Below are positions 4,866 to 39,846 of a stretch of 64,000 bases of DNA, piece by piece; position 1 is the first letter of the stretch, and each line of letters opens with the position of its first letter. Location: contig JAOAEQ010000003.1 of the NCBI GenBank assembly GCA_026416715.1, forward strand, positions 1-64,000, written 5' to 3'. The notes under the pieces are model-generated. The model saw nothing but the letters and a program-made list of their open reading frames with translations, did not search any database and was not told the origin of the DNA. This stretch comes from a bacterium (GTDB lineage Bacteria > UBP4 > UBA4092 > JAOAEQ01). A program made the position numbers and the translations under genes.

Positions 4866-6170
4866 TTATTTCGCTCTAAGTACAGTTTTATTTGCGCCAT
4901 CGACAACGATGATTTTTGCGTTCGGGTCATCCGCTAGCCATCGGTCGATAACCGCTTGCGGGTCAGTTATCTTTTTCATATGAATTTTCGTAACCGTTTC
5001 TTCCGCCAGCTCGGTATAAACCAAAATATTAACCTTGTTCAATAGCTGGGCGAATTTATATGCTTTATGGGAATAGAGCTTATATCCGCTGGCGATATTT
5101 TCCATCACTTCATCCGGCTCTTCCGATTGAGCTAATAACTCATAGAAATGGTGGTATGCGTTCTGATTCGGAGCAATACCTAAATCGCAGGGGACTAACC
5201 ATAAAATTTCACCACCAGGGATAATCGCTTGTTTCGTTAATTCAAGGCCGCGCTGTGCGTCATAAAGCTGGTCGCCTTCGGGTTTCGGACCAGGGGTTAC
5301 CACGAGATATTTGACCGGTTCAACTGCAAACGACATCGTCTGGTCAATAAACGTAAACGCAGCGGAACTGACTTCTTGCGGATTACCAGCTTTCGCCCAG
5401 ACGATTCGGTTATTCGCAGTAACAATCGTTAAATTGAATACTGGTTGCTCTGGGGAAATGATCCTATTCACGATTTCTAGCATATCTTCTGCGAGCGGTT
5501 GGATTCTCCGGTTCGGGTCAGGATGCCAGGGATGCCGACCGAACGTAGATAATTCATCAAGGGCTAACCGATGGTTTTTTTCGATAGTTTCGAATGCGCA
5601 AGCACCGGGTATGAAATGTTTGAGATAATTGCTATATCCAGCGAAATAATGATATTTACAATCGGCAATAACCAGATATACTTCCGCATTTAGTATCGCT
5701 TGGTTAACGAGAATCGGAGTTCCTCGAGAAGTTGTTCCGAGATTGACGAACGCTTCTCGATCAAAGCAATCGTTTAACCTGATTGTATACGAAGCTAACC
5801 CTACTTGTTTGCTATTCTCGTCTATCCATCGAGCAATCTGGCGCGTTTTATCCATTTTAATATCATGGGAACCGGTGGTGATAAAAAATGTAACTTCTTT
5901 AGCAGATTTAAGAAAGGGAACGATAACTTCAATCAGTTCCTGATGCGGTTCCGACCGGGTACCGTCAGCGATAAGCAAGCAGATTCGTTTACCGTTTACG
6001 AGAGAAGATACCGATAGTTTCGTTGCTCGAATAGCTTGTGTAATCGCTTGTTTCGTATCCGGTTCGGTTTTAACGGATAATGGAGAATAATATCCAGCGA
6101 CATTCTGTTCTGGAATATGGATAGTAATACTACTACTCCCATACGCTAATTTAAATTCTTGTATAGCCAT
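4866..6170 (-). CDS. larA: LarA-like nickel-pincer racemase family protein
   Basis: The 434-residue protein aligns with lactate racemase LarA (PF09861). ADGTRSEPH (69-76) matches the DxTRxxP motif and GSH (100-102) the first active-site histidine. His174, Lys184 and His200 fall at the same spacing, indeed the same numbers, as the residues of Lactobacillus plantarum LarA that act in catalysis or bind the pincer nucleotide. The usual glycine pair before the lysine is replaced (SNYLK), so the substrate may differ from lactate; the family also includes racemases and epimerases of other 2-hydroxyacids. The cofactor genes larB, larC and larE are not in view. It is the last gene of the minus-strand block that includes ROK, M20 and GATase-like genes. 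Confidence 0.85.
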   Translation of the reverse strand: MAIQEFKLAYGSSSITIHIPEQNVAGYYSPLSVKTEPDTKQAITQAIRATKLSVSSLVNGKRICLLIADGTRSEPHQELIEVIVPFLKSAKEVTFFITTGSHDIKMDKTRQIARWIDENSKQVGLASYTIRLNDCFDREAFVNLGTTSRGTPILVNQAILNAEVYLVIADCKYHYFAGYSNYLKHFIPGACAFETIEKNHRLALDELSTFGRHPWHPDPNRRIQPLAEDMLEIVNRIISPEQPVFNLTIVTANNRIVWAKAGNPQEVSSAAFTFIDQTMSFAVEPVKYLVVTPGPKPEGDQLYDAQRGLELTKQAIIPGGEILWLVPCDLGIAPNQNAYHHFYELLAQSEEPDEVMENIASGYKLYSHKAYKFAQLLNKVNILVYTELAEETVTKIHMKKITDPQAVIDRWLADDPNAKIIVVDGANKTVLRAK

Positions 6171-6234
6171 AATCGCTCATTAGGTCAAAATAATATAGAA
6201 TTTTGTTCGCATATCCATTTTATTTTAGATGATT

Positions 6235-6260
6235 CTGAACACGACACGATGATTGTTCAG
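6235..6260. promoter_or_regulatory. Inverted repeat upstream of larA-like gene, possible operator
   Basis: CTGAACA (6235-6241) and TGTTCAG (6254-6260) are exact 7-base arms separated by 12 bases, about 65 bp upstream of the larA-like start. Half-site centres are 19 bp apart, close to two helical turns, as in many dimeric repressor sites. The neighbouring ROK protein is a candidate ligand, by proximity only. The rest of the 270-bp gap (6171-6440) shows nothing clear. Confidence 0.35.
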
Positions 6261-6440
6261 GTAAGTTTCGCGTATTGAAAAGGCAATACTGTAGACTAAA
6301 GTATCGGTGAAACTCCTGATAGGAACAGAAATCAAACCTGCTACAGATTAATCCTCTATCCATAGCCCCAGCGAATTTTAGCATATCCACAATATCACCG
6401 AGAACTTCACCTCAGCGATATTCCCGTATTCTACGGTATC

Positions 6441-7679
6441 TTATTTAATGTGTGGGGAACCTGCTAACTCAGGAATCGTAAAAATATTTTTTAAAATGAG
6501 CGTCGTCGCACCGAGAAGCGCAGCATCGTCGCCAAGTTCTGACACTCTAATTTTAACCGCTTGCGCAGAGACGCTTAGACTCCGTTCTTGCAACGTGCGC
6601 AGTAACGGTTCTAAAATGAACTCGCCAGCTTTCGTTAAAGCGCCGCCGATAATGAGTAATGCTGGATTTAGGATATTCACCAGATTCGCAGCCCCGATTC
6701 CAAGATGCGTTCCCGCTTCTTGTAATATCCGCCGACAGAGTTTATCCCCACGTGTTGCTGCAATGTAGACTTTTTCAGAAGTAATACTCTCTAAATTTTT
6801 ATTAACTAAATCATTTAGAATCGAATCAACCCCTTTTTCCAACGCAGCAATCGCATGTTCACGAATCGCTTTTGCAGAAGCAATCGCTTCTAAACACCCG
6901 AAATTACCGCATCGACACGGTGGACCAGTTTCGTCAATCACCGTATGGCCTATTTCTCCTGCAGACTGACTTGCCCCAAAATAGAGAACCCCATGACTGA
7001 TAATTCCCGCACCAATACCCATTCCGATATGGTAATAAATCAAATCATCAATATCTCGACCACAACCGAACACGCGTTCCCCTAACGCGGCAGAACGCGC
7101 TTTTTCCTCAATAGCAGTCGGAATATTAAACTCGGATTCGATTAATTGTTTTAATGGAATATTCCGCCATCCGGGAATATTCGCACTAAAAATAACTATC
7201 CCCTGGACACTATCTACCAAACCTGCTACAGCTATCCCAACGCCTAACAGTTTATCTTTATCCGGAACAGCATTAATCAGTTGGCGAATGATATCTTTAA
7301 CCTGTTGCACTACCGCCATCCCGGAATTTTCTGGCGGCATATCCTGTTGCTGATGCGCGATGATTTGTGACCGTAAGTTTGTTAACGCTCCGCGAATATT
7401 CGTCGCTCGTATATCAATACCAATGATATAACCTTGTGTAGGATTAATGGTCAATAGTATCGGTTTTCTACCACCGGTAGATTCAGCACTTCCAACTTCA
7501 ATAACAATCCCGTTCTCGATAAGTTCTTTTACAATTTCAGTAACCGTGGTTAACCGAATATTCGTTATGTTATTGATATCCGTTCGGGATAACGGTCCAT
7601 GCGTCCGGATTAAATTTAATATTTCCATGCGATGCTGATTCAAAATCCGCTTCTTCTCATCAACGCTAGTTTTTACCAT
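6441..7679 (-). CDS. ROK-family transcriptional regulator (NagC/XylR type)
   Basis: The 412-residue protein has an N-terminal winged helix-turn-helix (about 17-62, with HGPLSRTDI and TVTEIVKELIENGIV) followed by a ROK sugar-kinase-like domain. GIDI.AT.IRGAL near residue 88 is the phosphate-1-like strand, and the zinc site CRCGNFGCLE is intact. Proteins of this layout repress sugar catabolic genes and are released by a sugar or sugar phosphate, often N-acetylglucosamine derivatives or xylose. Located inside a cluster of GH20/GH84 hexosaminidase genes, it is the best candidate for local control. It lies 16 bp downstream of the M20 gene and probably shares its transcript. Confidence 0.93.
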   Translation of the reverse strand: MVKTSVDEKKRILNQHRMEILNLIRTHGPLSRTDINNITNIRLTTVTEIVKELIENGIVIEVGSAESTGGRKPILLTINPTQGYIIGIDIRATNIRGALTNLRSQIIAHQQQDMPPENSGMAVVQQVKDIIRQLINAVPDKDKLLGVGIAVAGLVDSVQGIVIFSANIPGWRNIPLKQLIESEFNIPTAIEEKARSAALGERVFGCGRDIDDLIYYHIGMGIGAGIISHGVLYFGASQSAGEIGHTVIDETGPPCRCGNFGCLEAIASAKAIREHAIAALEKGVDSILNDLVNKNLESITSEKVYIAATRGDKLCRRILQEAGTHLGIGAANLVNILNPALLIIGGALTKAGEFILEPLLRTLQERSLSVSAQAVKIRVSELGDDAALLGATTLILKNIFTIPELAGSPHIK

Positions 7680-7695
7680 AATTAACCACCTGCTT

Positions 7696-8889
7696 TCATC
7701 TATTCCTAAAAAATTCTTGCTTTATTATAACAATAGTATTCGGTTCTAACAAGAGGTCAACCGAAGTCATCGCTAACGCTTTAGCTGCAGCTAATAAACC
7801 GTTCCATCCTCGGTTTGAACAAGCTGCGGTAGCGAACTCAGGCGAATGTAAACTTACTGGCGGGTCAGTAATAGCGATTTTCGGATGGATTGTCGGAACC
7901 AGTTGGCTGACATTACCGATATCACTGCTACCTAGTCCGTTCGTCGGATAACTCGGCTGTACTTCAATACCTAACAAGTTTAAGTTCTGACTGAATAAAC
8001 GCGCTAACGCCTGATTCGATTGCATCGCCGCATATGATACCGGGGATAGTTTATAGACCAATTTTGCTCCTGTAGCCGTACTCGCAGCGCGAAAACAATT
8101 CAGTACTTTTTCCACCAGTTCTTTAAGATATCCATTCGTTAGACTACGAACGATAAACACGCCGCTCGCATAATCAGGAACAACATTTGCGGCTTTTCCG
8201 CCGGCAGTAATAATGCCATGAATGCGTGAACTGGAAACGATATGCTGTCGTAACGCATTGATATTATTAAAACTTAATAGAAGTGCATCGAGCGCATTAA
8301 TACCTTGTTCCGGAGCAACTGCAGCGTGTGACGCTTTACCAAAAAATTCTACGGTAATGGATTGGTTTGCTAAACTATAATAATCAACAATCGTTTTATT
8401 ATCCGGATGAAACATCATCGCTACATCAAGGGAATCGAATATCCCTTTTTGTAACAGTAGAATTTTACCGCCCCCTTTTTCTTCTGCCGGTGTTCCAATT
8501 ACCTGAATCTGTCCTGGTAGCCCGAGCGAGTGAAAAACATTTTTTAACGCGACCGCTGCTCCAACGGAAGCAACCGCAATTAAATTATGCCCACAACCAT
8601 GCCCGATTTCCGGTAGTGCATCGTATTCCGCAAGTAGCCCAATTACCGGAGTTGAACGCAACCCCTGATATACCGCACGAAATGCGGTTGGTAACTCTGC
8701 AAGATTGAGTTCAATTCTAAACCCCTGCTCGGTTAAATAGTTGGTTAATATTTCTACAGCATAAAACTCTTCAAAAGCCAGTTCCGGTTTCGCATGGATT
8801 TGCTGACTTAAACCAATCAATCTATCCTTAAGCCGGTCAACTTCCTGAATAATTGCTTGTTTCATCTCTTGAATAGTATTGGGCATCAT
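7696..8889 (-). CDS. M20-family amidohydrolase (AbgB/PM20D2-like)
   Basis: The 397-residue protein is a zinc-dependent M20D-type metallopeptidase/amidohydrolase. LLAEYDALPEIGHGCGHN is the signature of the AbgB / p-aminobenzoyl-glutamate hydrolase and PM20D2 branch, with metal-binding histidines in GHGCGHN. The catalytic glutamates lie in TPAEEKGGGK, and a later HSPEF supplies another ligand. Such enzymes remove acyl groups from amino acids or cleave dipeptide-like amides in the cytoplasm; no signal peptide is seen. The adjacent larA-like and ROK genes suggest a catabolic operon, but the substrate is unknown. ATG codons at 8889 and 8886 are both possible. Confidence 0.88.
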   Translation of the reverse strand: MMPNTIQEMKQAIIQEVDRLKDRLIGLSQQIHAKPELAFEEFYAVEILTNYLTEQGFRIELNLAELPTAFRAVYQGLRSTPVIGLLAEYDALPEIGHGCGHNLIAVASVGAAVALKNVFHSLGLPGQIQVIGTPAEEKGGGKILLLQKGIFDSLDVAMMFHPDNKTIVDYYSLANQSITVEFFGKASHAAVAPEQGINALDALLLSFNNINALRQHIVSSSRIHGIITAGGKAANVVPDYASGVFIVRSLTNGYLKELVEKVLNCFRAASTATGAKLVYKLSPVSYAAMQSNQALARLFSQNLNLLGIEVQPSYPTNGLGSSDIGNVSQLVPTIHPKIAITDPPVSLHSPEFATAACSNRGWNGLLAAAKALAMTSVDLLLEPNTIVIIKQEFFRNR

Positions 8890-8930
8890 AGTTCTTACCC
8901 TTGAATATGGTTAGGATTATACACTCGCAA

Positions 8931-10721
8931 TCATCGTTCATTACCTAATATCCGGTGGAGTTCTAGATAAAGTTGAACGATAGTCCATAATGCTCCTTTT
9001 GACGTAGAAGCATGTATCACCTTCACGGGAGTACCAGTTTTCTGGTCTCGGATGAGTTTACTTTCAGTCATATCATGTTCATTATTCCAATATTTCCAAC
9101 TCTCACCGCCAATAAATTCTGCACTTATTATATATTCTTTAATATTCAATTTCCACCATGCACGTTTTAGGTCAGACGATATAACCGTATTCGTATCCAG
9201 CTGGTTCCCGGTTGATGTAGATTGGTTTTTTTGCGCTACCATAACTACGTTATGAAATTCCTGTTCAAACTCGGTCATACCCGCATAAATCTTGCGCCAC
9301 GACGCTAATACCGGCGGTAACTCTCGCTGCATTTTCTGCAATTGAACATACATTTCTGTACCCTGTGGGAGAACGCATTGAGTCTTCCTATTCCTATCCG
9401 TTGTATCAGCTGTTGTCATTCGAACAATCGCAATTAATAGTTCCTGCAGTTTCTGGATATACTCTTTTGCGCTCGGCATTCTCCATACGAAATAACATTT
9501 ATGCCACATTAAATTCCCTTGTTCTGGTTGAGTATCAATCCTCTCACAGATACGGTCAACTTTTCGAATCAGGTCAGCGATTTGGTTAACTGTAACTAAA
9601 TTTCGTTCAGCTAATTCCGCTAGTTTCGCTGAGCTGACAGTAGGTTTACCTGATTTCTTGGTATAAGTTGATATACGGTTAGATGAAACATACTTCCAAG
9701 CGAAATAGGGTTGTATCGCTCGAGTAGAAGGTGTACTCTGTGTTGCGGTTAAATAGAAGATAATATTTCCATACAACCGTGGCATTCCTTCAACATTCTC
9801 AATACCGGTAGAAGATTCAGGATGCGGTCCGATTAACACCACTTTACCTTTTTGATACTCACTAGCAATCATACACCCCTGCTGACATAATTCCGGTTTT
9901 TTCCATTGCGCCGGAACTGTTTCGATTTTAGCGAGAACACGAGAATCAAGTTGAAACGTTGGCCCACACCAGTATTTAAGCTTGAACCGAGAACGAGGAT
10001 AGCCCCAGAATATTGGTAAATCGGAATTAGTCGGTGCTATTTCTACTTCACCAACCGCAGCACTATCAGCTAGAGTATTCGTTACCAAATTCAATCCCAA
10101 CTCCGTATCTGCGGCGAGATACGCTCCAGCACAAACCCCTAAATAACCATTTCCACGTTTTACAAAATTACGAATTGCTGTTAATCCTTTCGGATAGATT
10201 ACATACGCTTGCACGGTGGATAATCCGCCGGGAATTAAAACCAGATTATATCGGTTACGTGTTAGCATCCCATTGCGGATATCCATACCATTAATCATAT
10301 CGCAGTCAACCCCTAACTGTTCGCAGATTCGAACGAAACTTGCCGGGCCATCAAACGTTCGGTCACCGCAATATATCGCTACCTTAGGTAACCGTAAAGT
10401 ATATACCTTTACGGTTCGTGGGAATTCTGTATATATCGGATTTAGCTTAAATTGCTGGCAGATATTAGAAAATAATTCTGTAAATGCAGGGGAACTAGAT
10501 TCCGGAACAATAAAACTGCCAGGTAACACTTCAGTCCCCTGAACCTGAACCGATTCAGCCAGCCAGAATACCGTATATCGGTTTCGTAATAATCGACTCA
10601 CCGCTTTAAAACTATCCAGTTGCCTTTGGTATTCCGTTGAAGAATCGCTTATCGATGAGAGAGGAACAATGTATCCTTTATGATGGCAACCCTGCTCCCG
10701 AGCTCCTAGAGTAATTCCCAT
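8931..10721 (-). CDS. GATase1/BPL_N-like protein with M14-companion N-terminal domain
   Basis: From the ATG at 10721 the product has 596 residues. Residues 15-100 resemble the domain found after the catalytic domain of M14 carboxypeptidases (GYIVPL, then a segment ending GSFIVP), but no M14 catalytic domain is present. Residues 110-330 are a class-I glutamine amidotransferase/DJ-1-like domain close to the biotin ligase N-terminal family: GVCAGAY carries the nucleophilic elbow cysteine and GPHPE the histidine. The C-terminal 250 residues are helical and unassigned. The frame stays open upstream to 10784 and encodes a fine signal peptide (KRLSPLTKFAIIVWYL) preceded by a GAGGTGA ribosome site, but its first codon would be ACG, not ATG. 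So the real start may be 10784. Related proteins: 18685-19527 and 19616-21562. Confidence 0.8.
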   Translation of the reverse strand: MGITLGAREQGCHHKGYIVPLSSISDSSTEYQRQLDSFKAVSRLLRNRYTVFWLAESVQVQGTEVLPGSFIVPESSSPAFTELFSNICQQFKLNPIYTEFPRTVKVYTLRLPKVAIYCGDRTFDGPASFVRICEQLGVDCDMINGMDIRNGMLTRNRYNLVLIPGGLSTVQAYVIYPKGLTAIRNFVKRGNGYLGVCAGAYLAADTELGLNLVTNTLADSAAVGEVEIAPTNSDLPIFWGYPRSRFKLKYWCGPTFQLDSRVLAKIETVPAQWKKPELCQQGCMIASEYQKGKVVLIGPHPESSTGIENVEGMPRLYGNIIFYLTATQSTPSTRAIQPYFAWKYVSSNRISTYTKKSGKPTVSSAKLAELAERNLVTVNQIADLIRKVDRICERIDTQPEQGNLMWHKCYFVWRMPSAKEYIQKLQELLIAIVRMTTADTTDRNRKTQCVLPQGTEMYVQLQKMQRELPPVLASWRKIYAGMTEFEQEFHNVVMVAQKNQSTSTGNQLDTNTVISSDLKRAWWKLNIKEYIISAEFIGGESWKYWNNEHDMTESKLIRDQKTGTPVKVIHASTSKGALWTIVQLYLELHRILGNER

Positions 10722-10977: not shown

Positions 10978-11829
10978 TTATCCTTTAATTCCGGTCATGA
11001 CAATTCCTTTAACAAAATAACGTTGTGCAGCAATAAAAAGAATAATTACCGGCAATAATACTACCAACGTAGCTGCCATTAGATAATGGTACTCTGTCTG
11101 ATACAACCCTTGGAAAACTTGGAGTCCGAGCGCTAATGTTTTTTTATCTGCACTCCGCAGATAAATCAGCGGACCCCAGAAATCGTTCCAGTTCCAAATG
11201 AATGAAAATAGAACGACCGTCGTTAACACCGGTTTTGATAATGGCATAATTATCTGGGTATAAATGCGGAACGAGCTACACCCATCAATCCGTGCCGCTT
11301 CATCTAAGTCGATAGGGATACTGCGGAAAAATTGACGTAGTAAAAAGATAAAAAAAGCGCTTCCGCCGAAATATGCCGGAACGGTTAAGGGATAAAACGT
11401 ATCTACCCAACCAAGTTTCGTAAATAAAATAAAACGCGGGATTTCAGTTACCATAGCTGGTAACATCATCGTACTCAATAGAACGAAAAATAATAATTCT
11501 CGACCTGGGAACCGTAACCGTGCAAAACCGAAAGCAACTAACGAACAGGAAATGAGTTGACCAGTTAACGCGAATGCAGTAATGATAAGCGTATTTTTAA
11601 GCAAAACCGGAAAATTCATCATTGTTAACGCTTGACGATAATTATCGAGTCGAATGGGATTCGGAATCCATACCATGGGTAACCGATTAAGTTGGGTATA
11701 TTCCATCAACGAAGTTCGAATCATCCACAAAAAGGGTAGTAGATAAAGAATACCACCGATGCAAAGTATGGTTATTACGATTATCTTTCCGATACGTTGT
11801 TTTGTTTTTTTACTTTCTATGAAAGACAT
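10978..11829 (-). CDS. Carbohydrate ABC transporter permease, MalG type
   Basis: The 283-residue membrane protein has six predicted helices and the EAA loop (EAARIDGCSSFRIYTQIIMP), the contact site for the ATPase subunit. This is the CUT1 sugar-importer family (MalG, UgpE, LacG). It follows the fused binding protein-permease gene by 62 bp, so both permease subunits are encoded together. No ATPase gene is nearby, as is common for CUT1 systems that share one MsmK-like ATPase. A strong GGAGGAG lies 23 bases before the ATG, unusually far, and I see no better in-frame start. Confidence 0.95.
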   Translation of the reverse strand: MSFIESKKTKQRIGKIIVITILCIGGILYLLPFLWMIRTSLMEYTQLNRLPMVWIPNPIRLDNYRQALTMMNFPVLLKNTLIITAFALTGQLISCSLVAFGFARLRFPGRELLFFVLLSTMMLPAMVTEIPRFILFTKLGWVDTFYPLTVPAYFGGSAFFIFLLRQFFRSIPIDLDEAARIDGCSSFRIYTQIIMPLSKPVLTTVVLFSFIWNWNDFWGPLIYLRSADKKTLALGLQVFQGLYQTEYHYLMAATLVVLLPVIILFIAAQRYFVKGIVMTGIKG

Positions 11830-11891: not shown

Positions 11892-14165
11892 TTACGTTTG
11901 TTCATAATGTACCCAATGCTGGGCTACTTTAAAGTTTAGTATCGTTAAGCCGAGTATGATGAGAAAGAGAATCCAAGCCATAGCGCAAGCATTTCCCATC
12001 GCTAAATATCGGAATGCGTTCTGATATAAATAGAGAATATACACGAGCGTACTATTCGCTGGTCCACCAGGTTCAATCACGCCAGCTGTTCCGGTCATAA
12101 CATACACGGAGGTGAATACTTGGAAAGAATTAATAATTCCAATGATTAAGTTAAAAAAGATCGTCGGGCTTAACATCGGAATTGTTACATATCGGAATTT
12201 ATGCCAAAAATTCGCACCGTCAATTTCTGCTGATTCATACAGATGTTCTGGTATCCCCTGGAGTCCCGCCAGATAGATAATCATCGGACCACCAACGAAA
12301 CTCCATATTGCCATAATAATGATTGCCGGTAATGCCCAAGTCGGTGAGGTTAACCAGCCTAACGCTGGGATCCCGAACCAACTTAATACATAGTTTATTA
12401 AACCAACATCCGGATTATATAACCATCGCCATAATAGACTGATTGCAACTCCGGAAGTCACCGCTGGTAAATAGTAAATAACCCGAAATATATAAATCCC
12501 GCGAATTTTATTGTTAAGTAACATGGCTAAGAAAAGCGAGAAAACCAATCCAAGTGGAACCGTAAAACTGACGTAGTACACGGTATTAAACAAGGATTTT
12601 TTGAACAACGGGTCTGTAAACAACGTTTTATAGTTTTTCAATCCTACCCAATGGGGACTACTTAAAATATCATATTCCGTAAAACTTAATAGGAACGAAG
12701 CGATAATCGGTCCGACAATGAAAATCAGAAATCCTAATAACCACGGGGCGATAAATAAATACCCTTCCATCCAATGGTATTTTCGTGCGGCGATAATTAA
12801 CACTACTAAAAGAATGACCGCAACCGCAATTCCGTAAGGGAAATAATTCGACCATTTGTTACTCCCGGTTTGGAAAGCGCCGTAATCCGGAACCGGTCGT
12901 TTCGCGAATTCCGATAGAAAGATATTGGTTTTTTCCTGCAGTTCCGCTAATCCAGTATCGATAGGCATAGCGTTCATTCTAATTTTTTCAAAAATCGGGT
13001 TCCAAACTCGAGTTAATAATTCTGTTTTCCATGGTGTATCAGGAATATCAACAATCGAATATGATAATGAATCGATGAACAGTTTGATTGAACGCGGTGG
13101 CGGACATAAAAAATAATTGGTATCCGTTGCCACTTCGATATTCGCAGGAACACAATTCTTTTGAACCCCTAACAATTTTTGTCCTTCTGCGCTCGAATAG
13201 AACTTAATAAACTCCCAGGTTTCTTTCGGATGTTTACTACCGCGCGTGATACAATGTCCACCTACGGCTAAAACTGAAATACGTCGGGCACCTTTCGGCA
13301 TCGGCGCAACATCCCACTCGTCAGGATTCATCGTTTCCGTTAATTTAACCAGTTGCCAGGTTCGACCGATAAACATTCCGAGCCGACCATTTTCAAATAA
13401 CTGCATATCTGAAGTATCAGACAGTTGGGCAACAGTCGGCGCTTCTTTCCCATACATACTCATACCCCAAGCTAATGCTTTTCGTGCTTCCGGTGAATTA
13501 ATCGTACATTTCGTTAAATCCGCATTAAAGAATGTCCCGCCAAATGAAGCAATCAGAATTCGCGAATCCGGAATCAAAGTACCGAATTGGTCAATTTTAC
13601 CATCGCCATTCGTATCTTTAGTTAATTTCGTTGCTGCGGCTTTATAATCGTCCCACGTCCAAGTTTCATCCGGATAAGGTATACCCGCTTGGTCAAAAAG
13701 TTTCCGATTATAGAAAATAACGTTGGTCGAAAAATGGATTGGGTACGCATATAACTTTCCATTGAAAGTTAATACATCTCGTACCTGCGGATAGAAAATC
13801 GACATATCAATCTGGTCTTGTTCAATAAACGGGGTTAAATCTAACACCGCATTTTTTGCAACTAATTGCGCTAAAAATGTTCCGACAAGATACATCACAT
13901 CCGGCGGTGTACCGCTTGCCATTTCAACGAGGAAGATTCGCGAAGCTTCCGCATTCGGTTCTAATTGCACGCGAATGTTCGGATGGAGTTTTTCGAATTC
14001 AGCGATAATCCGTTTAATTCCAACAATTTGTTGATGAGCCGTTTCGTAGGTTAAATAGCGGATGGTAACCGGTTTGTTTCCTGAAGAATCCTGGCAAAAA
14101 CTTTGCGTGGTTATAATAGAAAGAGCGAATAGTAAACAATATGATAGTTTGATAATTTTTCTCAT
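11892..14165 (-). CDS. Fusion of sugar-binding protein and ABC permease (MalE-MalF-like)
   Basis: The 757-residue protein joins two subunits that are normally separate. Residues 1-24 are a signal peptide. Residues 32-425 are a family-1 extracellular solute-binding protein (PDVMYL, NVIFYNRKLFDQAGIPYP and TWTWDDY are family hallmarks). A hydrophobic segment at 442-460 crosses the membrane, and 465-757 are a MalF-type permease beginning GYLFIAPWLLGFLIF, with an EAA loop (YESAEIDGANFW) near 640. The binding domain would thus be tethered outside the inner membrane to its own channel. The reading frame is continuous, with no sign of an assembly artefact. It is the first gene of the importer pair and has no visible Shine-Dalgarno sequence. 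Confidence 0.93.
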   Translation of the reverse strand: MRKIIKLSYCLLFALSIITTQSFCQDSSGNKPVTIRYLTYETAHQQIVGIKRIIAEFEKLHPNIRVQLEPNAEASRIFLVEMASGTPPDVMYLVGTFLAQLVAKNAVLDLTPFIEQDQIDMSIFYPQVRDVLTFNGKLYAYPIHFSTNVIFYNRKLFDQAGIPYPDETWTWDDYKAAATKLTKDTNGDGKIDQFGTLIPDSRILIASFGGTFFNADLTKCTINSPEARKALAWGMSMYGKEAPTVAQLSDTSDMQLFENGRLGMFIGRTWQLVKLTETMNPDEWDVAPMPKGARRISVLAVGGHCITRGSKHPKETWEFIKFYSSAEGQKLLGVQKNCVPANIEVATDTNYFLCPPPRSIKLFIDSLSYSIVDIPDTPWKTELLTRVWNPIFEKIRMNAMPIDTGLAELQEKTNIFLSEFAKRPVPDYGAFQTGSNKWSNYFPYGIAVAVILLVVLIIAARKYHWMEGYLFIAPWLLGFLIFIVGPIIASFLLSFTEYDILSSPHWVGLKNYKTLFTDPLFKKSLFNTVYYVSFTVPLGLVFSLFLAMLLNNKIRGIYIFRVIYYLPAVTSGVAISLLWRWLYNPDVGLINYVLSWFGIPALGWLTSPTWALPAIIIMAIWSFVGGPMIIYLAGLQGIPEHLYESAEIDGANFWHKFRYVTIPMLSPTIFFNLIIGIINSFQVFTSVYVMTGTAGVIEPGGPANSTLVYILYLYQNAFRYLAMGNACAMAWILFLIILGLTILNFKVAQHWVHYEQT

Positions 14166-18679: not shown

Positions 18680-18684
18680 TATTG

Positions 18685-19527: not shown

Positions 19528-19615
19528 ATCGTATCTCTTTCCCTAGCGTAGATAGAACGGATTTTTGTTACAATAACAAGATAATCTGCTTAACAAAAAC
19601 CTATATAATAAGCGA

Positions 19616-27496: not shown

Positions 27497-27502
27497 CGTA
27501 GA

Positions 27503-31370: not shown

Positions 31371-31381
31371 AACGAAATAAA

Positions 31382-32635
31382 TTATTGTTTATCCACAGTA
31401 GTATTAAATTTATCTAAAGCAATCCACATTTCATCAGTCATCGACCCATATCGGAATATCGTAAATCCATTGAGGTTATGTTGATAGATTGCTTGCAAGG
31501 TTGTTGCGAAATCCGTTGCGGTAAATGGTTTATTTGTTCCTTCAGCAGTGAACCCTTGAATCCCAGGATATACTGGCTTTCCAGTTCTCAATGCGGTCCG
31601 TTTAGCGATATCTATGACCCAATCTGATTTTTTTCCGAAACTACCTTCATATGACATCGGACAGATGAAATCTAAATAGGTACCGAGCTGCCAATAATTC
31701 TGTCCGTAATAACATAGGGCAAAAGCATCATCTGCTTCTCCGCCTTCAGGCATAAGCGCTGCTGATAAATTCACGTTTGGTTTCTTTTTATGAATGATTT
31801 CCTTGATTTCTTGTGTCATTGAGGTAATCTCATCCTGCCGGAATTTAACCCATTTAACTATATCCGGGTCACCGTTTGTATATGCTTCTACAAACGTTCC
31901 GCGCTGGATATTTTTCTCTGCAATGGATTTATATACTATCTTCCGGATATGGTCAAGATTGATACCCAACTCTTTTGCTTTCTGCTGATGTCGTGGACAA
32001 AAACAATACATAATATGCGTATACCGAATACCATCAAGATGAATCCCATCCACTGCGTAGTTATCCAGCAGGTCACTAATTAAACTTTTAAAATAGTTCC
32101 GGTAACCTGGAGCAAGTGGACATACTTTTTCATTTTTAGCTGGGACCGGACCTGCAGCCCAATTCGCTGTATCTCCCGCTTTATAGATAGCTTCTCCTGG
32201 ATGATTATCAACCCACCGTTTATCTCCATGAAACATGAACCAAGCATGAATTTCTATATCCTTTTTATGACAAGCTGAAGTTAACTCCTGGAGAATATCT
32301 TGTTTTCCAACAGTAGTATGCGATGACGAAGTTTTAAATGCAACCTCGCCGCTGTTCCCTTTCACCAATACAATAATCTTATTAAACTTATATTGAGCTA
32401 AACGATTGACGACATTTTCTACCCCTTCATGCGCTACGGTAGTTTCCCAGACCCAGATAGCTCTGGTTCGAGTTCGATGTTGTGCCAACGATTCATTTTT
32501 GCTCGCGGTTGATTGGTTGCTCGTAGTTTTGTTGTTTCCGTGTCGAGTATAGGACATGGATTCTGCTAATAACGGATAATCCATTGAACAGATCAAGCCA
32601 CCTACGATTATCAAACTAATGAAATTTTGCAACAT
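31382..32635 (-). CDS. Secreted GHL10-type putative glycosidase (copy 1)
   Basis: The protein has about 417 residues from the ATG at 32635, which gives a signal peptide (MLQNFISLIIVGGLIC). The catalytic-type TIM barrel matches the GHL10 / DUF187-like family: AIWVWETTVAHEG at the first strand, DGIHLDGIRYTHIMYCFCPRH, LSAALMPEGGEADDAFALCYY and FICPMSYEGSFG. The Asp in HLD is a likely catalytic residue. It is a tandem copy of 32635-33849, with the same motifs throughout, and its ATG overlaps that gene's stop (TAATG), so translation is coupled. A third, more distant member is at 14206. The substrate is unknown; family members are predicted glycosidases. Confidence 0.87.
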   Translation of the reverse strand: MLQNFISLIIVGGLICSMDYPLLAESMSYTRHGNNKTTSNQSTASKNESLAQHRTRTRAIWVWETTVAHEGVENVVNRLAQYKFNKIIVLVKGNSGEVAFKTSSSHTTVGKQDILQELTSACHKKDIEIHAWFMFHGDKRWVDNHPGEAIYKAGDTANWAAGPVPAKNEKVCPLAPGYRNYFKSLISDLLDNYAVDGIHLDGIRYTHIMYCFCPRHQQKAKELGINLDHIRKIVYKSIAEKNIQRGTFVEAYTNGDPDIVKWVKFRQDEITSMTQEIKEIIHKKKPNVNLSAALMPEGGEADDAFALCYYGQNYWQLGTYLDFICPMSYEGSFGKKSDWVIDIAKRTALRTGKPVYPGIQGFTAEGTNKPFTATDFATTLQAIYQHNLNGFTIFRYGSMTDEMWIALDKFNTTVDKQ

Positions 32636-33849
32636 TATTCTAATACCTTCCACATTTCGTCTGTCATCGAACCGTACCGGAATATGGTAAATCCTTTAAG
32701 ATTGCTCGCTTGTATCTTGTTTATCACCGCTTCAAATTGTTCTATCGAGAACGGTTTATCTTCCGAAAAAGCTTGCACCCCAGCGTAGACGGGTTTTCCA
32801 GTTTTACGTTCGGCATTCGTCGCAATGTCAACAACCCATTCGGGACTCTTCCCAAAACTTCCATGATATGTCATAGGGCAGATAAAATCCAAATATTTAC
32901 CTAAATGCCGATAATTTTGTGCATAATAGCATAAAGCAAACGCATCATCTAGTTCGCCCCCTTCGGGCATTAATGCCGCAGATAATTTCACTTGGGGTTT
33001 CTTGGTATTAATAATATCGCGTATCGCTTGTACCAATGAGGTTATTTCGTTCTGCCGTTGGTCAACCCACTTCGCAACATCATTACTATATTTGTATACT
33101 TCTACATATAAATTGCCCCGAGCCTGTTTAGTTGAGTCCCGTTCATACAATGTTTGATAAATTACATTACGAATAGAAGCTAAGTTAATACCAAGTTTTT
33201 TAGCCATTTCTTGGTGTCGTGGACAGAAGCAATATACGATATGGGGATACCGAATGTAATCTAAATGAATACCATCAACTTGATAATTATCGAGCACTTC
33301 TTTAATTAACCGTTTGTTATATTCTCGGTATTCAGTAGCTAACGGACAGATTTTACCATCAGTCATAGCATATGGACCTTTTTCCCATGCAGTTGTGTCG
33401 CCAACATGGTATGCAACTTGGTCGTGATGTTTTTCAGCCCAGTTACTGTCTCTATGAAATACAAACCAGGCATGAACTTCAATCCCTCGTTTATGACAGG
33501 CATCAATCATTTCCTGTAAGATATCTTGTTCGCGATCAGTCTGCGGTGCAATTTTACTTTTAAAATTTACCTGACCGCTCCCCCCCTTAACTAGTAAGAT
33601 AACTTTTGTAAATTTATAACGTTGAAGTTTCTCCGCAATATTGTCCGCTCCTTCCTCTCTCACCGTTGAACCCCATAACCATACCGAACGAACTAGACCG
33701 GTTTCGTTTACTAACGAACTAGACTGTTTAGTATGGTTCGGCTCTATTTTTTGTGTTTTAGATTGACCTTGACTCACAGCCAAGTAGATGCCAATAAATC
33801 CAACCAGAATAAATATTGAGCATTTCTTGTGTAAAGTAAATTGAGTCAT
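32635..33849 (-). CDS. Secreted GHL10-type putative glycosidase (copy 2)
   Basis: The 404-residue paralogue has a signal peptide (1-27) and the same barrel: SVWLWGSTVREEG, DGIHLDYIRYPHIVYCFCPRH, LSAALMPEGGELDDAFALCYY and FICPMTYHGSFG. The cysteine-histidine cluster CFCPRH is shared by both copies and absent from the 14206 member; it may bind a metal. A strong TAGGAGG ribosome site lies 6 bases before the ATG, so this is the leading gene of the pair. A promoter is likely in the 58 bp upstream but is not clear. Confidence 0.87.
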   Translation of the reverse strand: MTQFTLHKKCSIFILVGFIGIYLAVSQGQSKTQKIEPNHTKQSSSLVNETGLVRSVWLWGSTVREEGADNIAEKLQRYKFTKVILLVKGGSGQVNFKSKIAPQTDREQDILQEMIDACHKRGIEVHAWFVFHRDSNWAEKHHDQVAYHVGDTTAWEKGPYAMTDGKICPLATEYREYNKRLIKEVLDNYQVDGIHLDYIRYPHIVYCFCPRHQEMAKKLGINLASIRNVIYQTLYERDSTKQARGNLYVEVYKYSNDVAKWVDQRQNEITSLVQAIRDIINTKKPQVKLSAALMPEGGELDDAFALCYYAQNYRHLGKYLDFICPMTYHGSFGKSPEWVVDIATNAERKTGKPVYAGVQAFSEDKPFSIEQFEAVINKIQASNLKGFTIFRYGSMTDEMWKVLE

Positions 33850-33907
33850 ATTATCCTCCTATAAAAAAATGTAACTTTACTTTTATCCATATCTTTTCAT
33901 CTTGGGA

Positions 33908-36121
33908 TTAGTTTTTTGCATCACCTTCCTGTTTTATTACTGCATAGTTAAACATAAAAAATGGATAACCACCGATACGGTCACTATCCTCTAGATTTTC
34001 TATAGTTAAACTATTATCTCCTTCTTTTAAGAAATATTCTGGTACTGGAAACCGATGGATACTCCACGGTAATTGGTTAAATGGGCTATCCCCCTCATAT
34101 ACCTTATTATTATTGATGGTTATTCGAATCCGGCATGGTTTAGGTCCCTCATCAGGTTGCGCTGAAACCAGTAACGTATAACTCGTTATGGGTGGAGTGC
34201 CTAGACGAAATCGAGCTTCCAATTTATGAAAATTGGTTTTAGCACCATAAATCCAGGTTGCCAACCGCGGGTCACCACCTAATTCATAGACTTTAATACT
34301 ATATCCACCGGAAAAATCATACGGCGAAAGAAAAATGTCATAAGTTTCATCGAGTGCAGTTTCTCGTTTAGCAATTTCTTTTAATCCTTCAATCTGTTTA
34401 ACCAATTGCGATAGATCATGATGTTTTTCTAGTTTCGCTAGAAATGCTTTCTGTTGATTAACATGTCGTTCAAGACTTGTCCATTTTTTCACCGCTTCTG
34501 GGTAAAAAGATAAACAGTTTTTCCAGGCGGTTTCTAATTCTGCAACTTTTTCTTTTATTTCTGCAATGTTCCTAATAGAAACTAAATCTACTCGTAAACC
34601 ATATCGGTCAAAATAGGATAATAGTTTATTTAACTCCTGGAGATATGAAAAGGTTTCAACTCCGGTAAGTTTTTTTGCCGCTTCTGCGACAGATTTGTCT
34701 GATTGATAAGCTTGATGATTCCATAAATAATCAACCAGGGTAACCAATGCTGTACTCTCATGAGGAACATTCGTGTTTAACGTATATACTGCAATATCCT
34801 TGAAAAATTCCGGATAGTACCATTTCTTCCAACTGGTTAACGGATCGGTCACATAATGATACATAAACGCATGAGGTGAACCAGTGCCATTCTGCCACAA
34901 CCATGGTTTCCGTCGAATTAAATTTGTTATCCAGATAACATCATGTTTATTAATTTCCGCTGAACAGACAGCCGGACCGGTCCAAAATATATCTATATCC
35001 TTAGGTACCCGAGTGCCAAGTGCGGTTAAATAGTCTTCTCGAGATTCAGGATATTTTGGAGGATACAGTGGTCCCCAGTAAAAGGGAGGACAGAAAAGTA
35101 ATTTAACTTGGGGATATTTTTTTCGCAAGGCTTGGTGTAATTTATTCAAAACATAGATATCTGCTTCGCGGGCAGAACCAAAGGTTTTTTCATCGACCGG
35201 ATTGATAGGAAACCGTGTATCATCATAGAGTAGCATCACATTTCCCCCTGATTGAGCAATTAACTCTGCCCTGCGGTAAATTGCTGCGAAATCTGCTGTG
35301 TCATTGCTTCTGATTTTATCTTCAGGATTGCCTCGAATAGGACAAATGCTTATGTACCAAGAAATATCTATTGGATTAAGAATATCTCCGATTTTTTTTA
35401 ATTCTCCTTTCCATTCAGCGCTCGGTTCGTGCCGCCAGTTTTTCCAATCAGTATTCCTATCTTCAGGGATAGTGAACACAAGCGTATTGAATTTAAATTG
35501 GATTGCAAACCAAGCCCAATCATGGCATGGGCTTGACCACGGAGTTGCAAGAAACCCTCGTTTTTCTACATCCGGATAATCATAAATTTCCGCTTTCCTA
35601 ACCACTGGTGTTCCAGCTTGATTGGTTACAAGCTGATTAAAGGAAATGATCGCCCAGAGTAATCCGATACCATTATTACTTTGTATCGCAACAATATCAG
35701 TATTCTCCTTTTTGGTCGGATAGATACAATATCCTTCTTTGTTCAAGAAGTGTTTTTTTGATTTGTTTTTTTCGAGTATAAGAATACAACTATACTTATT
35801 TTGCTTCTTACCTTGCGAAATGAATTCGACTTGTCCACCGTTTTCTATGATTCGTTTTATTAACATTTCTATACGAGGATCCTCTTTGGTAATCCCTTTA
35901 CCAAGATAAATACCAGTATGCGTTAAGGGAATATATTCGTCATAATACGTAACCTTTTGTGGGGTAGGGAGTATGGTTCCGGTATAATATGGAATTTGGA
36001 ACGCAGAAAGACCCGAACCGAAACTATTTTGCATTGCCATAAGTAGTCCTATAGTAAAAAAAATAGTAATTCTACAAGACAAGTTTTTGAGCTTTTTAGA
36101 TAGCAAAAACGTTCTTACCAT
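33908..36121 (-). CDS. Divergent GH84-like hexosaminidase with GH20b domain
   Basis: From the ATG at 36121 the protein has 737 residues and a signal peptide after a basic stretch. It carries a GH20b-type domain (ILPTPQKVTYYDEY), then a barrel like GH84: MLLYDDTRFP holds the Asp-Asp pair expected for the substrate-assisted mechanism, and DIFWTGPAVCS matches the FWTG motif of the 38119-39846 enzyme. The later WDN motif is replaced by WQNG. A helical region and a beta-sandwich (TSYTLLVSAQPDEGP) complete it. Likely activity is on beta-linked GlcNAc or GalNAc; the exact family should be checked. It overlaps the upstream glycosidase gene by 26 bp. Confidence 0.8.
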   Translation of the reverse strand: MVRTFLLSKKLKNLSCRITIFFTIGLLMAMQNSFGSGLSAFQIPYYTGTILPTPQKVTYYDEYIPLTHTGIYLGKGITKEDPRIEMLIKRIIENGGQVEFISQGKKQNKYSCILILEKNKSKKHFLNKEGYCIYPTKKENTDIVAIQSNNGIGLLWAIISFNQLVTNQAGTPVVRKAEIYDYPDVEKRGFLATPWSSPCHDWAWFAIQFKFNTLVFTIPEDRNTDWKNWRHEPSAEWKGELKKIGDILNPIDISWYISICPIRGNPEDKIRSNDTADFAAIYRRAELIAQSGGNVMLLYDDTRFPINPVDEKTFGSAREADIYVLNKLHQALRKKYPQVKLLFCPPFYWGPLYPPKYPESREDYLTALGTRVPKDIDIFWTGPAVCSAEINKHDVIWITNLIRRKPWLWQNGTGSPHAFMYHYVTDPLTSWKKWYYPEFFKDIAVYTLNTNVPHESTALVTLVDYLWNHQAYQSDKSVAEAAKKLTGVETFSYLQELNKLLSYFDRYGLRVDLVSIRNIAEIKEKVAELETAWKNCLSFYPEAVKKWTSLERHVNQQKAFLAKLEKHHDLSQLVKQIEGLKEIAKRETALDETYDIFLSPYDFSGGYSIKVYELGGDPRLATWIYGAKTNFHKLEARFRLGTPPITSYTLLVSAQPDEGPKPCRIRITINNNKVYEGDSPFNQLPWSIHRFPVPEYFLKEGDNSLTIENLEDSDRIGGYPFFMFNYAVIKQEGDAKN

Positions 36122-38027
36122 AATAGGTTTGGATTGCACCGAGCAATTCACCTGCACCGACATTAGAAGCGATGACCGGAGTTGCCATTAAACCAGGGTC
36201 TCCGCGAGCGATTTTTCCGGTCTGTGCATTCATACATTCCCAGATACTTGGATAACGCAAAATGAAATTGACGGTCGCTTGTTTAATTCTTTCAAGTAAA
36301 TCCGGATAATAATAAAATGCGGTTGCCATCGCTAGCGAACAGGATTTTGCCCAAGTGGGACCCCGCCAATACAGTTCCGCATGAAATCCGGTTTCATTTG
36401 GTGCTACCGTATAGATACCATACGTGCTAATTAATTTCATAAAGTTTCGTTTTGCTCGAGCCGCTTGTTTACTATCGGCAATATTATAAGCAAATGGGAA
36501 TAATCCATCGACTCCCACCCGGGTATCGAGAGTTCGATTCTGATGCAATACTCCATACCATTGTTTTTTTTCATCCCAGAGAATAGCTTGCATTTGTTGT
36601 TTGGTAATGGTAGATTCGCGAATCCAATCCTGCGAGTTCGTTTCCCCAATAATTTCAGCAATTTTGCCCATCGCTTGTTCATATCGACATCGTTCCGCAG
36701 CAAAAATGGTTGGATAGCAAAATAGTTCTTTCTTGCCATGTTCGCCATAACTAACCTTCTGGAATTGCGGTATTGTATCTAATCCAGTATCCCAGGAACA
36801 GATTATTGCCCAAAGATGGAGATTGAAAAAATGTTCATCTCTGAATTTATTTAAGTATTCATAGTATCGCACCAGTTTCGGATACCATTTTCGTAAACTG
36901 TAGATATCTTTCGTAGCATAATAGTATTGTAAACATACCCAAGGAACATGTGGGGTCTGGATAACACTCTTTTTCGACCACGCTTCCCCAGGGATTTTTT
37001 CATCCAGATAAATAGCATGGGTGACATAACCATCTTCTCGTTGATACTGTAAAAATAAATCGAGTAGGCGTTTCATACATTGAGAGTTAACCTCAGGATT
37101 CATGGAGGTATGCCATTGCATAGCTGGTAATGCCCATTGCCAGTATCCCCGATACACCGGTAACGCTTCTAGAACTGCTTTTCCAATTCGTTTATCGCGA
37201 TAATAGTTCGTTTTAATTACCCACCAGCATTTATAATATGCTTTTTTATCAGGTTCCGTTTTAAATGGCGGATGGGCTAAACTTGAAAACCAGGTATTCC
37301 ATTTACGTTCTAATCGCTGTTGAACATGTTTAGTCGAAAACGCAAGAGATGCATTTTTTTTCGAGTGGGTACTAATTCCAAATCGGATTGTTTTATGTTC
37401 TTGGGGTAAAAGTTTCATCCGATGAGTTAAAACCAGATAATATCCATATTGTACATTCTTAGCGGGTGATTTTCGGATGAAATCGTCGATTTTTTTATAA
37501 AGTTTATACTCATCGAAATCACTCGTAAGATAAATAACCTTTTCTCCAGTCTTAATTTCGAGCATATGGTTGTTCCGTTTTACGTTCGCTAAGGAAGAAA
37601 ACACGATAACCGTATGTATATTTTTTTCAAACGTAAACGGTGCATGATGTTGACCAACCAATGTTAGTTCCCAGAGGAACCCAGGTTGGTTAGCTTGAAC
37701 GAATTTTTCTTCTATTTCAATGCCATCACTAGAGAAAATGATTTTTCTTCGGATGAGCGAAGGGAAATATTCCATCGTTTCAAAATAAAATGTCGGTTTG
37801 GATAGAATATTTCCAGATGATAGATACTCAGCAAACCGAATCGCAAACGTCGGTTGTTCGTCATAGGTGGTATTTTCGCGGTAATCAAATAGGTACCCAA
37901 TACTACTAAACTCCGCAGGGTAGGCGAACGATAGTGAAAAATCATGTTCCTTAACAATAATTGCTGTTCTTCTGGGTAGTTTTTCGTCAAACGTTTCTCT
38001 AACCAATTTGTATAATGACATTTGCAT
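36096..38027 (-). CDS. (alpha/alpha)6-barrel glycoside hydrolase (GH63/GH37/MGH1-like)
   Basis: The 643-residue protein has an N-terminal beta-sandwich and a helical barrel (about 265-640). Motifs resembling GH63, GH37 and mannosylglycerate hydrolase families are RGYWQWALPAMQW, CSWDTGLDTIPQF (a possible catalytic Asp), FHAELYWRGPTWA and a C-terminal NVGAGELLGA segment. The family includes glucosidases, trehalases and mannosidases, so the substrate is open. No signal peptide is seen, so it probably acts in the cytoplasm on imported sugars. It precedes the GH84-like gene, which it overlaps. Confidence 0.82.
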   Translation of the reverse strand: MQMSLYKLVRETFDEKLPRRTAIIVKEHDFSLSFAYPAEFSSIGYLFDYRENTTYDEQPTFAIRFAEYLSSGNILSKPTFYFETMEYFPSLIRRKIIFSSDGIEIEEKFVQANQPGFLWELTLVGQHHAPFTFEKNIHTVIVFSSLANVKRNNHMLEIKTGEKVIYLTSDFDEYKLYKKIDDFIRKSPAKNVQYGYYLVLTHRMKLLPQEHKTIRFGISTHSKKNASLAFSTKHVQQRLERKWNTWFSSLAHPPFKTEPDKKAYYKCWWVIKTNYYRDKRIGKAVLEALPVYRGYWQWALPAMQWHTSMNPEVNSQCMKRLLDLFLQYQREDGYVTHAIYLDEKIPGEAWSKKSVIQTPHVPWVCLQYYYATKDIYSLRKWYPKLVRYYEYLNKFRDEHFFNLHLWAIICSWDTGLDTIPQFQKVSYGEHGKKELFCYPTIFAAERCRYEQAMGKIAEIIGETNSQDWIRESTITKQQMQAILWDEKKQWYGVLHQNRTLDTRVGVDGLFPFAYNIADSKQAARAKRNFMKLISTYGIYTVAPNETGFHAELYWRGPTWAKSCSLAMATAFYYYPDLLERIKQATVNFILRYPSIWECMNAQTGKIARGDPGLMATPVIASNVGAGELLGAIQTYYGKNVFAI

Positions 38028-38118
38028 AGGCGCTAAAAAGGCGGAAAATACATTCCCGCTAATTCATAATAGGTTCCTTGTGAGTTTTGCTATTTATTTC
38101 ATTATAAAATATCAACCA

Positions 38119-39846
38119 CTATTTATTCTTACTACGTTGCATGTGTTCCCGTTTAAAATCGTTTAGCCAATTACCATAACTATTCCAATCCCATTGATTC
38201 AATTCCGAAAATGCACGAGTTTGAGTTAAAACCTGAATCAATTCTTTTCTTAGATAAGGATTATCAATCGTTGTTTTTACTTTTTGTATCAAATCCGATG
38301 CTCGTTTCATTTTTCGTTTCAATAATTTCTGTTGTTCTGAGACTGGAAGTTTTTTCGGGTCAATTAAATACCGACCATATCCGAACCGAATTCCAGGATG
38401 CCCGCATCCGAATTCCTTTGAAATTTTTAAAATAGTATCTTTTCCTTTGTTACCACCATATTGTGCTGCTGCTCGTGCATAGGATTGTTCTGGTTCGTAG
38501 GTAGATGGATTCCAAGCATAATCCGCAAACGTGGTTAATGGAATTCGGTTAGTTTCTGCAAAGAGCATCGGGTTCATAATAATTCCTTCACAAGAGTCTG
38601 GCAAATTTTTATCTCTACCCTCTAAAGGGACTAACCGAAGAATAATCGAATTATCGTTTGCAAAATAGTTATCCCAAATTAGTAATTTGCGTTGTAATCG
38701 TCGGCGCATTTGCTCAGCATCGGATATCGTTATACGAGGTGAGGTGATATTATATCCAGTCCAAAATATCGAAATTTCCGGATGAATGGTTTCCCCAATT
38801 TTCTGCCAATATTGTTCAGCTATTTTATAATCATCATAGTATGCCGGGGATGTAGCGTAATAGGTTGGGCAGAACAGAAACTTGATATTCGGGTAAGAGG
38901 TTTTTAAGTCGCTATATAAACGGTTAACTAAAGCTGATTGTGCACTAGCTAAATCTGGATATTGCGCTGAATCTTCAGCGTAGTTTAACTGTTTCGGCAC
39001 ATCGTCTAATAATAAAGCGAAATAGGTAAACCCAAGATGCATCATTGCTTTCGCTTTTTTCAGGAGCAATTGATAATCAGTTTCAGCAGAATATTTAATG
39101 CTCAATCCCGGACTAATCGAAAAACCAAGGTCGACCCCATTCTTTTTCCCTTGGTGAATAAGTTCTTGGAATTGACACATCGCTTCAGATGAATACGATT
39201 CCCGCCATTTTTCGCGATGGAACGGATCCCATTTTGGTGCGTAAATATATACATTAAGCTTATGGTGTTTCATAAACTCGAGCAACCGCAATCGTTCTTC
39301 ATGTGACCATGGTTTCCCATAGAATCCTTCGATAACTCCACGAATTGCAAATGATGGATTTTCTATTCGATCTGTCATTTCTAGGTACCAATACTTCCGA
39401 CCCTTATGGATTCGTTGTATCAGATCTTGAACTGCATAGTTACATCCTCGAATACTCGGTGAACCAAGAACGATAATATTGTTCTTATTCAGCGTATCGG
39501 CATACAACCAATAGCCATCAGCTGTAATTTTATCAAATTGTTGTAAGCGAGTATCCAGCAGTTTTTTTAGCATCGGATTGTTGAGCGGAGAACCAACTAG
39601 CATAATCGTTTCACCCATTTCGAACGTCTTGCTTTCAGGGGAAATAAAGGTGACTTGGATTCGATTTTTTTTGGTAAAATTCCGAATTGTATCCTTTATG
39701 CATCGATATTGTTCCTCGGACGGAATGAGCACGACAGTCGCTTTTGACGAGATAATAATTCTTTTCACTGGATAGCTTTTTGTATTTCCAATACTGGATA
39801 ACATTAGCAAAAATAGAAGTATAATTTCAATACCTCGAATTTTCAT
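38119..39846 (-). CDS. Secreted GH84 beta-N-acetylglucosaminidase (O-GlcNAcase/hyaluronidase-like)
   Basis: The 575-residue protein has a signal peptide (1-22), a GH20b-like domain (about 28-155) and a canonical GH84 domain (165-460). RGVIEGFYGKPWSHEER (169-185), YIYAPKWDPFHREKWR and ALLLDDVPKQ with the catalytic Asp281-Asp282 pair are all diagnostic, as are FWTGYNIT and WDNYFANDN. Bacterial GH84 enzymes release GlcNAc from glycoproteins, mucins or glycosaminoglycans. The C-terminal helical region ends in a basic tail. It is the first gene of the block and no ribosome site is visible. Confidence 0.93.
   Translation of the reverse strand: MKIRGIEIILLFLLMLSSIGNTKSYPVKRIIISSKATVVLIPSEEQYRCIKDTIRNFTKKNRIQVTFISPESKTFEMGETIMLVGSPLNNPMLKKLLDTRLQQFDKITADGYWLYADTLNKNNIIVLGSPSIRGCNYAVQDLIQRIHKGRKYWYLEMTDRIENPSFAIRGVIEGFYGKPWSHEERLRLLEFMKHHKLNVYIYAPKWDPFHREKWRESYSSEAMCQFQELIHQGKKNGVDLGFSISPGLSIKYSAETDYQLLLKKAKAMMHLGFTYFALLLDDVPKQLNYAEDSAQYPDLASAQSALVNRLYSDLKTSYPNIKFLFCPTYYATSPAYYDDYKIAEQYWQKIGETIHPEISIFWTGYNITSPRITISDAEQMRRRLQRKLLIWDNYFANDNSIILRLVPLEGRDKNLPDSCEGIIMNPMLFAETNRIPLTTFADYAWNPSTYEPEQSYARAAAQYGGNKGKDTILKISKEFGCGHPGIRFGYGRYLIDPKKLPVSEQQKLLKRKMKRASDLIQKVKTTIDNPYLRKELIQVLTQTRAFSELNQWDWNSYGNWLNDFKREHMQRSKNK

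Follow-up and report, generated by a model that had tools for sequence, protein, structure and literature searches.

A large mosaic locus in a UBP4 bacterium, probably serving the catabolism of a beta-N-acetylhexosamine-containing polymer

We analysed a 64,000-nucleotide stretch of DNA (the window; contig JAOAEQ010000003.1, positions 1 to 64,000) from the 2.96-Mb genome, in 64 contigs, of a bacterium of the candidate phylum UBP4. Annotation of open reading frames (ORFs) and Pfam domains placed 22 genes at 4866-39846, every one on the minus strand; window genes described below are on that strand unless stated otherwise. We consider it probable that they form a large catabolic locus for a polymer containing beta-N-acetylhexosamine, built not on a Sus system but on an ATP-binding cassette (ABC) importer and a ROK regulator. 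The polymer would carry beta-linked N-acetylglucosamine (GlcNAc), and we do not decide between the candidates weighed below. The locus is real, unusually large and mosaic, and its core is known in kind. This reading is favoured by the catalytic motifs of the GH84 (Asp-Asp) and GH20 (Asp-Glu) enzymes, the pattern of N-termini, a NagA and a MurQ/GCKR-like homologue, the recurrence of GH84 genes with permeases, similar actinobacterial and Anaerolineae loci, and a ROK paralogue in a second GHL10 cluster.

Glycoside hydrolases, importer and regulator

Two proteins of the locus have the GH84 domain and keep its catalytic Asp-Asp pair. The secreted GH84 beta-N-acetylglucosaminidase (38119..39846; PF07555, E 7.1e-93) matches solved O-GlcNAcases with E-values down to 2.9e-69 (5diy), and the exported GH84-like protein, which has a GH20b N-terminal domain (33908..36163; PF07555, E 5.7e-28), matches them at E 1e-15. 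The GH20 hexosaminidase, without a signal peptide (28911..31370; PF00728 and PF02838), has the catalytic Asp-Glu of its family at Asp300-Glu301. The cytosolic, MGH1-like (alpha/alpha)6 glycosidase (36096..38027; PF22422, E 6.2e-28; MGH1/trehalase type) has homologues in only two other genomes (63% and 56% identical), i.e., the family occurs in three of the genomes searched, which suggests transfer between lineages. The secreted GH42-like protein (24088..26682; PF02449, E 2.1e-16) may not be a beta-galactosidase, because in its alignment to 4ucf the acid/base Glu of the WxxxNE motif is missing and WNISFCNND stands at that place.

The glycosidases are accompanied by a solute-binding protein (SBP), two permeases and a ROK regulator with a helix-turn-helix domain, as in loci of the ABC/ROK type. 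The MalG/UgpE-type sugar permease (10978..11829; PF00528) is 51% identical to a permease of the bacterium UBP4_UBA6127, the single genome that represents relatives from the same class in our comparison (its sequence DIVR01000006.1 is identical to part of contig C11). The SBP is fused to a MalF/UgpA-type permease in one ORF of 757 aa (11892..14165; PF01547 and PF00528), and the junction contains an additional transmembrane stretch; UBA6127 and the inspected GH84 loci encode the two separately, and the fusion is a new feature.

Compartments were assigned by a simple hydropathy reading of N-termini rather than by a signal-peptide predictor. Hydrophobic N-termini of the export type were found in the SBP, GHL10-type, NlpC/P60, GH42-like, phosphodiesterase-like and GH84-type proteins and in two of the three GATase1-like proteins, and not in the GH20, (alpha/alpha)6, M20, LarA, URO-D-like, ceramidase-like and third GATase1-like proteins. 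This pattern suggests a layout of trimming outside, import, and digestion inside. The secreted GH84, GH84-like, GHL10-type, GH42-like, NlpC/P60-lectin and GATase1-like proteins would bind and trim the polymer; the SBP-permease fusion and its partner permease, with an ATPase encoded elsewhere, would take up small GlcNAc-containing products; and the cytosolic GH20 and (alpha/alpha)6 enzymes would release monosaccharides. The M20, ceramidase-like, LarA and URO-D-like proteins could process substituents, and GlcNAc-6-phosphate would enter metabolism via NagA, which was found above its cut-off on another contig (G000:C9). The genome also encodes, at G000:C1, a GCKR-like double-SIS protein that scores above the NCBIfam cut-off for a MurNAc-6-phosphate etherase subfamily (MurQ-like).

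The NagC-like ROK protein (6441..7679; PF00480, E 1.1e-62), with a winged helix and a CxCGxxGC motif, would act as sugar sensor and as repressor of the locus, whose genes are presumed to be co-expressed. A paralogue, 67% identical, lies at a contig end (G000:C12, 86-94 kb; L074) among genes encoding GHL10-type proteins, a DegT aminotransferase and a member of the enolase superfamily, and a regulon common to the two ROK loci is plausible from this arrangement. The 10-mer TAACAAAAAT occurs at window positions 19570 and 39889 and at L074:13242 (minus strand), in all cases in intergenic DNA of the two ROK loci, upstream of a GATase-like gene, the GH84 gene and the DegT gene of the second locus. 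It should be noted that TAACAAAAAT was noticed post hoc and that its count is not above chance, so it is a mere lead for an operator.

Accessory proteins

Two neighbouring secreted proteins, one with a lectin-like and Ig (immunoglobulin)-like tail (15774..17360; Cys107, His151, Glu169) and the other, 61% identical to it, with a lectin-like domain (17393..18679), were assigned to NlpC/P60 by family alignment. Taken alone, the pair has no match in Pfam even at E 10 and none in a PDB search, and a contig scan with the pair as query detected no relatives; an AlphaFold model of the 428-aa protein, made from two sequences, was poor (pLDDT 38) and was not used. When 386 genomes were searched, 19 genomes other than the window's own yielded matches; in about a dozen of them the N-terminal 190 residues are covered, in varied architectures, and the weakest matches fall outside that domain. 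In a 14-member alignment of this clade the catalytic Cys and His are invariant and the Glu is nearly invariant. The corresponding profile matches E. coli MepS/MepH/NlpC (hhalign probability 96.6%, E 5.7e-10), and its matches among solved structures are mostly NlpC/P60 proteins. PF00877 is matched weakly by nine of the 14 members (best E 0.0021) and not by the window proteins. The name NlpC/P60, given to the pair in an earlier note on this DNA that was made without database searches, is correct by the comparison with MepS/MepH/NlpC, although the clade is divergent. Judged from these alignments, the pair represents a divergent, widespread NlpC/P60 clade that Pfam barely detects, which is a new feature of the locus. 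A conserved protein of ~300-320 aa without a Pfam match precedes genes of this clade at G000:C6 83.6-84.2 kb (L211:8587-11654) and in L205, L206 and L207, and the gene pair occurs both in genomes of family f14 and in the window's own genome.

Three secreted proteins are of the GHL10 type. Those at 31382..32653 (PF02638, E 3.6e-19) and 32635..33849 (PF02638, E 1.5e-21) are clear members, and the third, which has Ig-like repeats and an NGVHLD motif (14206..15696; E 3.3e-4), scores 20.3 bits against a Pfam cut-off of 27.9. The profile of the clear pair has its best match in Cwp19 (E 5.9e-7), a GHL10-domain protein of C. difficile that is a peptidoglycan lytic transglycosylase (PMC6016235). E. coli DigH, which shares the domain family, degrades denuded glycans (PMC12288456). 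In comparison with these two peptidoglycan-active members, the window proteins have LD[YGC][IF]RY where Cwp19 and DigH carry DDYFY, and Tyr, Gly or Cys replaces Asp196 of Cwp19, a proposed active-site residue (PMC5765458). Since this Asp is missing and most of the matched GHL10-type relatives have the LDYIRY-type motif, the GHL10 domain alone does not point to peptidoglycan.

The remaining accessory genes are more heterogeneous. The three GATase1-like proteins all keep the Cys and His-Pro-Glu motifs: a BPL_N protein without a signal peptide (8931..10721; PF09825, E 9e-12; CAG and GPHPE) and two secreted ones, at 18685..19527 (E 8.9e-13; Cys125 and GPHPE) and, with a helical C-terminus, at 19616..21562 (E 9.1e-6). 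Similar short C-terminal tails, PVELxxFxAIxEP, end the secreted proteins at 14206-15696 and 18685-19527 and may represent a sorting or linker motif common to both. A short cytosolic amidase resembling neutral ceramidase (21636..23030; PF04734, E 8.3e-16) shares with the P. aeruginosa and human enzymes the N-terminal catalytic domain and likely Zn-ligand motifs (THTHSGP, aligned to 2zws, and further motifs); unlike them, it is only 464 aa long, short of the full two-domain length, is cytosolic, and scores 19.2 bits against an equivalog cut-off of 1200. Use of glycosphingolipids by this protein and the phosphodiesterase-like protein was considered and set aside, because the former is cytosolic and far below the cut-off and its relatives often stand beside sugar genes. 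The URO-D/MtaA-like protein (23118..24095; PF01208, E 9.5e-17) matches best, below cut-off, the MtaA/CmuA subfamily of NCBIfam. The cytosolic M20 amidohydrolase (7696..8889) scores above the TIGR01891 cut-off. The cytosolic LarA homologue (4866..6170; PF09861, E 1.9e-31), of the Ni-dependent 2-hydroxyacid racemase family, reaches 145 bits against 460 for the lactate racemase equivalog; its best NCBIfam model is LarAH5 malate racemase, far below cut-off. The gene of an endonuclease/exonuclease/phosphatase-family protein with CBM (carbohydrate-binding) and Ig-like domains (26648..28816; PF03372) is split into ORFs 27503-28816 and 26648-27496, which are one frame continuing past a single TAA at 27503-27505; this split, a further new feature of the locus, may reflect a nonsense change, read-through or a sequence error. 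Another phosphodiesterase-family gene clusters with two GHL-type genes at G000:C20 (L069:7614-11430), an echo of the window.

Locus integrity and recurrence in other genomes

The gene content reported in the earlier note (GH20, GH84-type, GHL10, GH42-like, (alpha/alpha)6, GATase1-like, ceramidase, URO-D, ROK, M20, LarA and ABC proteins) has Pfam support, and Pfam detected neither SusC nor SusD among the locus genes, so the pair that marks Sus-type loci is missing, as that note had also stated. Its description of a continuous minus-strand cluster holds for 4866-39846, but the run of genes on this strand continues as far as 53141, taking in pilin-like and PD40 genes; strandedness alone is therefore insufficient to delimit the locus. 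A gene for glutamate dehydrogenase with an FGase-like gene (39936..42117) lies on the same strand across a gap of 89 bp, and the membership of these genes is uncertain. The other end adjoins a gene of the serine beta-lactamase/DD-peptidase family (PF00144) on the opposite strand (3500-4678, plus). The G+C content of the locus equals that of its flanks, and recent transfer of the entire locus is accordingly unsupported.

Parts of the gene set recur elsewhere. Among 80 GH84-anchored loci from named genomes, importer permeases were found near GH84 in 20, ceramidase-like genes in 8, ROK genes in 7 and GH20 genes in 6. An actinobacterial locus combines ABC, ROK, GH4, BadF-type kinase and GH84 genes, and one from Anaerolineae has GH84, an SBP, two permeases and an (alpha/alpha)6 enzyme. 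A URO-D-like gene is present in 4 of 20 ceramidase-anchored loci versus 0 of 107 others (p 5e-4), although taxa and lengths differ and the result is indicative only. Thus, the earlier proposal of scavenging of GlcNAc-containing polymers by an undescribed route stands in its first part, which the GH84/GH20 motifs, the ABC importer and the ROK protein fit. A wholly unrecognised route does not: GH84 genes accompanied by an ABC importer, and at times by ROK as well, were found again in Actinobacteria, Bacilli and one Anaerolineae genome, and ceramidase-like with URO-D-like genes in other phyla. The complete gene set was seen only in the window, and the accessory set recurs piecewise in other uncultured lineages.

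Several observations weigh against a single catabolic unit. The UBA6127 homologues of the GH84, GH20, ABC permease and ceramidase genes are dispersed over contigs C41/C11, C25 and C19 with no such cluster, so the locus as a whole is not conserved; the refuting observation named in the earlier note, freely varying neighbours in related genomes, has thus been made in part, in this one class relative. Intergenic gaps of 256 and 270 bp and a terminator-like hairpin 3' of the GH84 gene suggest that there are probably several transcription units (the terminator scan overall gave fewer matches than shuffles). There is no ABC ATPase among the scanned locus genes, a search that did not extend to the rest of the genome, and NagA, NagB and sugar kinase genes were not found within the locus. 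The association of GH84 with the same permease type (20 of 80 loci versus 0 of 27 comparison loci; Fisher p 0.003) is indicative only, because the comparison loci come from other taxa, are shorter on average, and a few of them are themselves GH84-anchored. A chance build-up of carbohydrate genes in a stretch where genes share one direction would agree with the absence of conserved order in UBA6127 and with the unrelated genes in the strand run, but we regard it as improbable: the locus, 1.2% of the genome, holds both GH84-type proteins, two of three NlpC-like domains, one of three GH20 genes and one of two closely related HTH-ROK genes, and such a concentration of rare families is not chance, while the sub-combinations recur in other phyla.

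Candidate substrates and related systems

If the locus does act on a beta-GlcNAc polymer, bacterial necromass is one possible, tentatively held source. NlpC/P60 proteins would cut the stem peptides of peptidoglycan, GHL10 and GH84 proteins the glycan, GH20 would remove GlcNAc inside, MurQ-like and NagA proteins would finish, and LarA would handle the lactate set free. This possibility is mainly based on the two secreted NlpC/P60 proteins with invariant Cys and His; the Cwp19 match, the activity of DigH on denuded glycans and the MurQ-like protein agree with it, but it is weakened by the missing GHL10 active-site Asp. In addition, the GCKR/MurQ-like gene lies outside the locus and is present in UBA6127 too, neither genome has AnmK, and LarA best matches malate rather than lactate models. 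A variant in which the necromass scavenging is of a new kind, with Cys-His-Glu NlpC/P60-lectin and secreted GATase1-like proteins stripping peptides, LDYIRY-type GHL10 and GH84 proteins cutting the glycan, and the SBP-permease fusion importing the products, seems quite doubtful. We consider it rather unlikely that the polymer is a glycoconjugate bearing terminal beta-GlcNAc, whether host-type or microbial (N-glycan, mucin-like or exopolysaccharide), i.e., neither peptidoglycan nor chitin: GH84 is similar to NagJ and BT_4395, the best solved match of GH20 is a lacto-N-biosidase, and the varied extra glycosidase types suggest mixed linkages, but the scanned locus genes gave no above-cut-off match to a sialidase, a fucosidase, a sulfatase or a GH101/GH109-type enzyme. 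Chitin or chitooligosaccharides are a poor candidate; GH20, GH84 and NagC-like ROK proteins are compatible with chitobiose use and GH18 proteins are encoded elsewhere in the genome, but the locus has no GH18/GH19 chitinase above cut-off, and the NlpC/P60 and GATase-like proteins are left unexplained.

The catabolic reading of the locus provides a concrete feeding hypothesis for UBP4, for which no physiological study was found in the literature searched. In several lineages it also ties orphan families (URO-D-like, ceramidase-like, GATase1-like and LDYIRY-type GHL10) to sugar catabolism, and the analysis brings to light a broad clade of NlpC/P60 proteins that is hardly detected by Pfam.

The closest systems in kind are the ABC-linked GH84 loci of Actinobacteria, Bacilli and Anaerolineae (L119, L129, L115 and L102), in which, as in the window, GH84 adjoins an SBP and two permeases, some also with ROK, kinase or (alpha/alpha)6 genes. 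Those loci are smaller, whereas the window adds GHL10, NlpC/P60, GATase1-like, ceramidase-like, URO-D and LarA genes and has the SBP fused to a permease. Much of the accessory set is shared with one genome outside the window's class (G039): one stretch (C51) has an (alpha/alpha)6 homologue, 62-63% identical, beside URO-D-like, ceramidase-like and GHL6/GHL10 genes, and in a second (C77) GH20-like and ROK genes stand with two ceramidase-like ones. In that genome, unlike in the window, the genes are spread over two contigs and no close homologue of the window's GH84 or ABC genes was found in the stretches read. Finally, as in the Sus-type polysaccharide utilisation loci of Bacteroidetes, glycoside hydrolases in the window are clustered alongside genes for a regulator and for uptake; the window differs from them in having no SusC/SusD, and its uptake would proceed through an ABC importer.

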